Source of the DNA: Mucilaginibacter galii
GTDB taxonomy: Bacteria > Bacteroidota > Bacteroidia > Sphingobacteriales > Sphingobacteriaceae
Reading direction: 5' to 3'
Assembly: GCF_014635825.1 (NCBI RefSeq)
Contig: NZ_BMDO01000006.1
Span: forward strand, 1 to 64,000
Length of the DNA: 64,000 nt
The position numbers and the translations under genes are program-made. Below the pieces are notes generated by a model. It did no database searches and had not been told where the DNA came from. It was given only the letters and a program-made list of their open reading frames with translations. Of this stretch, positions 7,827 to 23,704 are shown in pieces (the stretch's first letter is position 1; each line of letters opens with the position of its first letter).

Positions 7827-8276
7827 ATGCCAGCTGACGAAATAACCATAGAGTTTGCAGGCGATCTGAGCCTGCAACTCATGATGACCTATCGCTCGTT
7901 ACATTACTTATTCAATAAGTTCCTGGATAACGCAGAGCTGGCACAGCACTACCAATTATTGTTTATACTAACGAGGATGGGCGGATGGGCTACTCAAACT
8001 GACTTAGTCCGGTATCTGAAGGTCGGTGAATCAACCACGCGGGCTTCGATCAATGTATTAGAAGAAAAAGGCTACGTGACCAGGGAGAAACACAACAAGC
8101 ATAATAGAACGCATGTTATCAAGATGACACGAAAAGCAGTAACCGCGATGACCAGCTTACGAGATGCCATGAAAAATGTTGAACTGGTTGCATTTCGCAA
8201 TCTTAACGAAGACCGTTTATTTTATCTTTGGTCTACCTTGATAAAGATCAACAAAAACATTGAAAAGAGCTTTTGA
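7827..8276 (+). CDS. MarR-type winged-helix regulator
   Basis: 149 residues with a winged helix-turn-helix between about 45 and 110 (GWATQTDLVRYLKVGESTTRASINVLEEKGYVTREKH then a wing and HVIKMTRKAV), flanked by dimerisation helices, as in MarR-family regulators. It starts 2 bases after the adaptor stop and is the last gene of the efflux operon, so it most likely autoregulates the pump. The inducing ligand is unknown. A strong terminator follows at once. Confidence 0.8.
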   Translation: MPADEITIEFAGDLSLQLMMTYRSLHYLFNKFLDNAELAQHYQLLFILTRMGGWATQTDLVRYLKVGESTTRASINVLEEKGYVTREKHNKHNRTHVIKMTRKAVTAMTSLRDAMKNVELVAFRNLNEDRLFYLWSTLIKINKNIEKSF

Positions 8277-8322: not shown

Positions 8323-9069
8323 TTAATATAGTCCCTGATTGAATTTTGCAATGGCTGCTTTAGGGTCAGCAAAATAATCGGCATATTGCTGGGCGGCTTC
8401 GCCAACAAAAATATCATAACGGTCTTCTGTGATGCCGTTATAAATATCTTCGGCCGCTACCTCCGGTGGTAATCCATGTTGCTCACCACCCATATCTTTA
8501 GTGGCATCTGTGTTGATAAGTGATGGCATCACCTCAAAAATTTTAATATTAGTGTCTGTTGACAGCGTTAAACGCAATGCCACAGAATGAGAATGCAAGG
8601 CAGTTTTAGCATCCGAATAGGTTGGTAAAACCACCAGCGGATGAAATGCCACGTTAGATGTAAGGTTGACAATGGCTGCTTCAGGTTGTTTTTTCAATAG
8701 CGGTAGCAAAGCTTCAATTAACCTAACCGGCGCGAAATAATTGGTCTCAAACTCTTGCCTGGCTTTGTCAACAGCGTTTGCACCTTCACCCAATTTGTAT
8801 ACGAAGCCTACTCCGGCATTATTGATTAATACACTCAGATCATTGTAATCAGCTTCCAGCTTTGCAATCAGGTTATTAACCGCGGTGGCGTCAGTAACAT
8901 CACAGGCAATATAAGCAGCGCCTAATTCATTTGCTGCTTTGGCTAACTTTTCTTCATTACGACCTGAAATAATTACTTTATTACCTTTTTCAATTAACAA
9001 TTTAGCTGTTGCATACCCGATACCGGAACCACCACCGGTTACCAGTACTGTTTTGTTTGTAATGTTCAT
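8323..9069 (-). CDS. SDR-family oxidoreductase
   Basis: 248 residues, a classical short-chain dehydrogenase. The cofactor-binding motif TGGGSGIG is at residues 11-18, NNAG at about 87-90, the catalytic serine lies in LTSNVAF and the YSDAK motif follows (YxxxK). An acidic residue after the second strand is not evident (SGRNEEK), which favours NADP(H). The gene is divergent from an HxlR regulator at 9178, and the 108-base gap holds a long inverted repeat, so it is probably the regulator's target. Its substrate is unknown; DltE-like SDRs in such pairs often act on reactive carbonyls, but that is inference. Confidence 0.85.
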   Translation of the reverse strand: MNITNKTVLVTGGGSGIGYATAKLLIEKGNKVIISGRNEEKLAKAANELGAAYIACDVTDATAVNNLIAKLEADYNDLSVLINNAGVGFVYKLGEGANAVDKARQEFETNYFAPVRLIEALLPLLKKQPEAAIVNLTSNVAFHPLVVLPTYSDAKTALHSHSVALRLTLSTDTNIKIFEVMPSLINTDATKDMGGEQHGLPPEVAAEDIYNGITEDRYDIFVGEAAQQYADYFADPKAAIAKFNQGLY

Positions 9070-9095
9070 GATTTCTATTTGTTAATAATAATATT

Positions 9096-9155
9096 TAAAT
9101 TTGCTTGCTATTTGCAAGTAAACAAAGGTAAGGGTAATTACTTGCAAATAGCAAG
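9096..9155. promoter_or_regulatory. divergent promoter with 18-bp inverted repeat operator
   Basis: An exact 18-base inverted repeat is present: 9104-9121 (CTTGCTATTTGCAAGTAA) and its complement at 9138-9155, with a 16-base spacer. Each arm is itself a palindrome, CTTGC-N5-GCAAG, so there are two dimer-type sites 37 bases apart. A TAnnTTTG box for the plus strand is at 9096-9103 and one for the minus strand at 9123-9130, between the arms. This arrangement suits repression of both the SDR gene and the HxlR gene by the HxlR protein. Confidence 0.7.
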
Positions 9156-9177
9156 TGTTATTTAACATTTTTATGTC

Positions 9178-9609
9178 ATGAAAGAAATTTTGCACCGATC
9201 TGATTGCCCGATAGGCTATTCATTAGATTACTTAGGCGACAAATGGGTACTTTTAATCTTAAGGGATCTGATTTTTACCAATAAATCGAGTTATGGTGAT
9301 TTTCTCGCCTCTGATGAAAAGATCGCTACCAATATTCTTGCCGACCGGCTTAAGCTGCTCGAAGCAAACGGCTTTATAAAATCTACCGTATCTGCGGAAA
9401 AGAAGAACAAGTTTATCTACAGCCTTACAGAGAAAGGCATCGACTTGATTCCGGTAATTATTGAGCTGATGATTTGGGGGTCAAAGTATGATTCACACGA
9501 TGTAAAGGACGTGGTCAAAAAATTGGAAAAAGACAAGGAGGGCACCATAAAGCAACTCCGGGATAAGCTATCAGCACGCATCAATAGCGATGTTCCTTCG
9601 GGTGAATAA
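9178..9609 (+). CDS. HxlR-family transcriptional regulator
   Basis: 143 residues with the HxlR winged-helix signature: an N-terminal cysteine (SDCPIGYSLDYLGDKWVLLILRDL), then the recognition region KIATNILADRLKLLEANGFI and a wing (KNKFIYSLTEKG). HxlR/YodB/HypR regulators often sense reactive electrophiles or thiol stress through that cysteine and control a neighbouring oxidoreductase. The divergent SDR gene and the palindromic sites between the two fit this. The C-terminus carries a charged extension of about 35 residues. Confidence 0.87.
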   Translation: MKEILHRSDCPIGYSLDYLGDKWVLLILRDLIFTNKSSYGDFLASDEKIATNILADRLKLLEANGFIKSTVSAEKKNKFIYSLTEKGIDLIPVIIELMIWGSKYDSHDVKDVVKKLEKDKEGTIKQLRDKLSARINSDVPSGE

Positions 9610-23634: not shown

Positions 23635-23704
23635 AACTATAAAAAGTATAGTTGCAAACGTATTGATAGCTTGATATATTTGCAATAACTATCCATTTGG
23701 ATAG
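23635..23704. promoter_or_regulatory. divergent promoter with two palindromes
   Basis: Between the NmrA-like gene and the HxlR gene are two inverted repeats: AACTAT-N7-ATAGTT (23635-23653) and CTATCC-ATTT-GGATAG (23689-23704). Their centres are about 52 bases apart, close to five helical turns. A plus-strand -7 box TATATTTG is at 23675-23682, so the second palindrome would cover the start of hxlR transcription. Probable HxlR operators. Confidence 0.6.

Follow-up and report, generated by a model that had tools for sequence, protein, structure and literature searches.

The gap between a short-chain dehydrogenase/reductase (SDR) gene and a divergent hxlR gene of Mucilaginibacter galii carries two 17-bp dyads, which are very probably the two-site operator of the HxlR/DUF24 repressor encoded beside them. 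From the sequence, the families of both genes, and the conservation and placement of the sites, we infer that this repressor binds the dyads and silences both promoters by occlusion. The window, that is, the whole stretch of DNA analyzed, is 64,000 nucleotides long, and the features of the locus are collected in Table 1.

Table 1. Features of the hxlR-SDR locus and its putative operator (positions are those of the window)
Feature	Position	Strand	Details
hxlR (HxlR/DUF24 winged-helix regulator)	9178-9609	+	143 aa, Cys10; PF01638, E 7.4e-18
SDR gene, divergent candidate target	8323-9069	-	248 aa; adh_short, E 1.9e-41
MarR-family gene	7827-8276		near the SDR gene and convergent with it
Left arm of the exact 18-base inverted repeat	9104-9121	+	CTTGCTATTTGCAAGTAA
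Right arm of the exact 18-base inverted repeat	9138-9155	-	TTACTTGCAAATAGCAAG
Operator site 1, putative HxlR dimer site	9103-9119	.	GCTTGC-TATTT-GCAAGT; covers both predicted start points
Operator site 2, putative HxlR dimer site	9140-9156	.	ACTTGC-AAATA-GCAAGT
-7 box of predicted hxlR promoter	9096-9103	+	TAAATTTG; predicted start 9108
-7 box of predicted SDR promoter	9123-9130	-	TACCTTTG; predicted start 9118
TTG, candidate -33 element of SDR promoter	9152-9154	-	outer half of site 2, 21 nt from the -7 box

The 9060-9180 region spans the gap between the minus-strand SDR gene and the plus-strand HxlR gene. The HxlR protein belongs to PF01638 (64.6 bits against a curated cut-off of 20.8), and its nearest relative among the named genomes is that of M. 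aquariorum, with 90% identity. By direct reading, the two arms of the inverted repeat are exact reverse complements, and each holds CTTGC-N5-GCAAG (9104-9118 and 9141-9155) at a distance of 37 bases, both of which agree with the initial annotation. No perfect inverted repeat in the window (loop of at most 60) is longer than this 18-bp arm, and 60 dinucleotide shuffles gave a maximum of 15 bp. The next longest lie at 8277-8289/8298-8310, between the convergent MarR-family and SDR genes, and at 22588-22603/22612-22627; both resemble intrinsic terminators, the latter as judged by eye only. With zero or one mismatch, CTTGC-N5-GCAAG occurs at only these two places in the 64 kb, where 2.91 matches are expected; therefore, the bare motif count is by itself no evidence.

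Sampling within the genus, the family and the phylum, together with a named genome collection, yielded the loci with HxlR relatives. After removal of five duplicates (L036, L037, L038, L039 and L040), 72 distinct upstream regions of 230 nt were scored for the 12 fixed letters of ACTTGC-N5-GCAAGT, with nulls from shuffles, and a pair was defined as two sites, each with at least 9 of the 12 letters, 28-40 bases apart. Paired dyads over the promoter region, conserved with the regulator as in an autoregulated divergent operator, were found at 57 of the 72 loci, compared with 0.025 expected. At least one site with at least 9 letters was present at 69 loci (6.82 expected in shuffles), and a site with at least 10 letters at 64. 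In the control, 14 paralogous HxlR loci, no pair and no site with at least 10 letters was found, and three had a single site of 9. The pair was absent from 15 of the 72 loci, some of them within the window's genus. Eight further loci (L045-L052) stood outside the 72-locus count, as did relatives without a returned locus; these eight had no exact site within 220 nt upstream, and including them gives at worst 57 of 80.

Outside Bacteroidota, assemblies labelled Nevskia and Nitrosomonas have pairs at spacings of 31 and 32, respectively; both are metagenome-assembled, so that mislabelling is possible. Of 26 records of plasmid relatives, 12 were fetched, and five of these have two sites with at least 9 letters: L107, L108, L111, L115 and L116, with spacings of 35, 41, 31, 35 and 37 (the 41 of L108 is beyond the 28-40 range used for the 72 loci). 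In the remaining seven plasmid relatives, the half-sites are weaker, altered or absent. The pairs persist beside differing divergent enzymes, as a Pfam scan of the neighbors indicated, which argues that they follow the regulator.

Two -7 boxes of the Bacteroidota type, given as TAnnTTTG at -12 to -5 in PMC9723704 and PMC6847099, face each other on either side of site 1, and the predicted starts of both genes fall within this site. The sites flank the minus-strand box and site 1 abuts the plus-strand box, just as had been proposed. Among the 57 paired loci, a plus-strand TAnnTTT(G/A) ending on the first base of site 1 was found at 42 (1.54 expected) and an exact minus-strand CAAAnnTA between the sites at 40 (3.42 expected); 34 loci have both boxes, and in all 34 both predicted starts are inside site 1. 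The first position is G in 32 of the 57 copies of site 1 versus 3 of the 57 copies of site 2, as expected if that base also closes the plus-strand -7 box. The two HxlR dimer sites controlling both genes, as put forward in the initial annotation, are thus well supported by their presence at 57 of 72 loci and none of the 14 paralogues and by their placement over both -7 boxes; the looping that accompanied this proposal is not.

At the 40 loci with an exact minus-strand box, the position of the outer-half TTG of site 2 is 18-21 nt from that box. It is plausible that this TTG serves as the -33 element of the SDR promoter, although it belongs to the half-site itself and its presence is not independent promoter evidence. 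The -33 element is given as TTTG in PMC2483708 and PMC6847099; in Flavobacterium johnsoniae, however, a -33 motif stands out far less clearly than the -7 box (PMC6847099), which weakens the role assigned to site 2. A scan for sigma-70-type promoters found six, compared with 6.1 expected. A TTG is usually located 17-23 nt upstream of the -7 box, and direct reading of the hxlR promoter revealed none in that range.

The exact 18-base repeat is present in the window as annotated, but the conserved objects are two separate 17-bp dyads. In an alignment of the 17 loci with a spacing of 37 or 38 (the window and 16 relatives), all 18 arm pairs form in the window alone. Each site's own dyad is kept (82/85 and 76/85 pairs), whereas the spacers pair between the sites in 49 of 85 cases, close to the 47.0 (sd 2.4) obtained with shuffled partners, and in both L041 and L061 one site is a direct, identical copy of the other. 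These observations argue that two dyads, not one hairpin, were selected, and the long repeat appears to be an incidental by-product of two palindromes with chance-matching spacers. They also bear on the idea that the repeat acts not as DNA sites but through the hxlR leader RNA, where it would be an attenuator, a terminator or a determinant of stability. The predicted leader from 9108 does fold into a 14-bp stem (-17.9 kcal/mol, z -2.93), and the small stem of site 2 (9139-9157), with its T-rich tail, is terminator-like in a pattern scan, where it is one of two found versus 2.1 expected in shuffles. However, the hxlR start codon stays unpaired in the predicted leader stem, Rfam gave no match at the gathering score in 8900-9400, and no stem kept by covariation was found across the 17 loci. 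The hairpin or attenuator was rejected on the absence of long-arm covariation and of an Rfam match, and we consider a role in the leader RNA extremely improbable.

A mechanism in which cooperative assembly or a short loop of two HxlR dimers 37 bp apart is essential is also unlikely in our view. Two sites are indeed present at 57 of the 72 loci, and in the window's own 14-row clade the spacing is exactly 37 in 13 rows and 38 in one. Against this, the spacings over all 57 paired loci range from 30 to 38: 30 (4 loci), 31 (4), 32 (18), 33 (7), 34 (1), 35 (5), 36 (1), 37 (16) and 38 (1). They tend to follow lineage on the HxlR tree, which omits L098, L102 and L094, and include values in helical phase as well as others offset by roughly half a turn. 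A 37-bp distance, itself offset in this way, is very short for a DNA loop. In L056, an additional base separates site 1 from the -7 box and brings the spacing to 38, yet the distance from TTG to the -7 box is still 21. The spread of spacings, with the TTG to -7 distance kept at 18-21, favors promoter occlusion over looping or a fixed contact between dimers. We therefore rejected looping as the main mechanism; flexible or cooperative contact between the dimers may occur but is not required by the data. Binding by a regulator other than this HxlR, for example the MarR-family protein encoded nearby or a global factor, seems very improbable, as the sites stay beside hxlR relatives through enzyme swaps and in other phyla, and the second neighbors vary in strand and length among several relatives.

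In the organism's own genome, exact CTTGC-N5-GCAAG occurs at nine places (18 strand matches), two of which are the present pair. A search for the pair elsewhere had been suggested at the outset, and no second operator was found among the exact matches inspected (four of the nine places). The exact match at 145264-145278 of contig 9 (the L105:2268-2282 region) makes up the stem of a hairpin that resembles a terminator and follows an aconitase-like gene; this serves as a warning against naive motif counts. The exact match in contig 1 lies just beyond the stop-codon end of a lytic transglycosylase-like ORF; the identities of both neighboring ORFs were judged by eye.

We compared residue 51 of the recognition helix with the half-sites. 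A canonical site accompanies Thr in 65 of 70 cases and Ser in 2 of 11 (p 3.7e-7, uncorrected); however, this association is not significant once relatedness is counted, there being too few independent changes on the tree. Altered half-sites such as GCAACT, GCAATC and GCAACC lie upstream of hxlR in six distant relatives (L096, L101, L019, L110, L113 and L114), five of which have Ser instead of Thr at position 51, again not significant on the tree. A second HxlR-like gene in the window (31% identity; match from 23773, plus strand) is preceded by CTATCC-ATTT-GGATAG (23689-23704), whose TATCC-N4-GGATA core is the core of the DNA with which Bacillus subtilis HxlR was crystallized. HxlR paralogues may use different half-sites.

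Several known proteins are related to the window HxlR. The closest solved chain is PA1607 of Pseudomonas aeruginosa (PDB 2f2e, E 2.2e-14), which shares the GD-W and NILA-RL segments; among the literature matches listed, its name string occurred only in a paper on fungal giant transposons. The second-best solved relative is HypR (YybR) of B. subtilis (4a5m, E 1.2e-10), a member of the HxlR/DUF24 family that regulates a nitroreductase gene. The quinone-sensing repressors YodB of B. subtilis and QsrR of Staphylococcus aureus, which belong to the same Pfam family as the window HxlR, control nitroreductase- or quinone-type enzymes, and YodB is a moderate sequence relative (E 4.2e-8). The QsrR site is reportedly the palindrome GTATA-N5-TATAC, the same 5-N5-5 geometry as in the window's dyads. 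In contrast to YodB and QsrR, the half-site of the window is CTTGC, and two dyads are arranged around a -7 box. The N-terminal Cys6 of YodB senses quinones and diamide (PMC8063818). B. subtilis HxlR is described in PMC7835342 as a formaldehyde-responsive activator, crystallized on a palindrome with a TATCC-N4-GGATA core, in which formaldehyde crosslinks Cys11 to Lys13, two residues on. It is of the same family but is a positive regulator with a different half-site, whereas the window sites overlap predicted promoters, as expected for a repressor.

The window HxlR has an N-terminal cysteine (Cys10), as do 68 of 70 family rows and also 12 of 14 paralogues; thus, the cysteine does not identify the signal. 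Its translation reads C10-P11-I12 and lacks the Cys-X-Lys pair of the B. subtilis formaldehyde sensor. Because Ile occupies the position two residues after Cys10, aldehyde sensing by a crosslink of the Cys11-Lys13 type is not suggested, and a thiol-based electrophile or quinone signal, which would fit better, is the favored reading.

The Pfam scan covered 30 neighboring ORFs (29 nearest neighbors and one second gene), three of which were without a Pfam family. Besides SDR, the families at paired loci were nitroreductase (L041, L060, L062 and L078), FMN oxidoreductase (L067 and L072), enoyl-CoA hydratase (L079), polyketide cyclase-like (L083 and L017), FAD-binding (L097), SnoaL-like (L103 and L104), zinc alcohol dehydrogenase-like (L014), GST (L044) and NmrA-like (L016); a ketoacyl synthase neighbors hxlR in L070, an unpaired locus with a single site. 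In the paired plasmid loci, the annotated divergent neighbor is an SDR (L107 and L115), a GST (L108), an F420 reductase (L111) or, in L116, a nitroreductase followed by a putative quinol monooxygenase. The plasmid loci without a clear pair have SRPBCC, SDR, dihydrofolate reductase-like, GST or aldo/keto reductase neighbors, L118 being unannotated.

In L060, L078 and L116, a nitroreductase, a monooxygenase and an SDR related to that of the window stand in a row opposite hxlR. All three are present in L041 and L042, with the SDR further off, and L062 has the nitroreductase and monooxygenase within the available stretch. The monooxygenase of these six loci resembles antibiotic biosynthesis monooxygenases, and five of the six have the window-related SDR. 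In L009:875-1388 and L038:3375-3888, a nitroreductase gene located between hxlR and the SDR gives matches in separate pieces only and appears broken; the SDR and the operator pair are retained there nevertheless. Given the recurring clusters and the broken nitroreductase, the window SDR may be a remnant of a longer electrophile-reducing cluster, and the enzymes of the related clusters suggest electrophile or quinone detoxification. Of 399 sampled family genomes, 11, counting the organism's own, have a close HxlR relative (at least 76% identity); these belong to two genera. Two rows of the second genus, L054 and L055/L036 (L036 being Pedobacter sp. Leaf216), are placed on the tree amid rows of the window's genus. 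The distribution of hxlR looks patchy, and the hxlR-SDR pair was perhaps transferred between genera.

Overall, we propose a putative mechanism for the control of this locus. An HxlR dimer on site 1 would cover the predicted hxlR and SDR starts and turn both genes off. A second dimer on site 2, which lies in the hxlR leader, would cover the SDR promoter's candidate -33 region and so tighten the repression. Modification of Cys10 by an electrophile or a quinone-like compound would then release the dimer from DNA; the SDR enzyme would be produced, and HxlR would readjust its own level. Judged from the sequence, this is a known kind of control, namely, autoregulated divergent control by HxlR/DUF24 proteins, and the ACTTGC/GCAAGT operator itself is new; no published operator of this form for this HxlR subfamily was found among the matches listed, most subscription papers lying outside the search.

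For an HxlR subfamily that has received little study, in Bacteroidota and some other phyla, a concrete operator is now at hand that can be put to the test; its start points are predicted, and nitroreductase, monooxygenase and SDR enzymes are found among the neighbors. Many such loci could be annotated with the pattern. The compact two-promoter operator could also serve as an inducible switch in this phylum, where genetic tools are scarce. We give even credence to a broader reading, in which the paired ACTTGC-N5-GCAAGT would be an undescribed code, shared across phyla, of a PA1607-like HxlR subfamily, with a shared site blocking two face-to-face promoters and serving as a portable front end. 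If this is true, a single binding event would block both starts, and the half-sites would double as promoter parts. From lineage to lineage, the spacing would have shifted by roughly half a turn of the helix (32 to 37) with the promoter geometry kept, and the regulator and its operator would form a portable unit onto which different electrophile-detoxifying enzymes are swapped.
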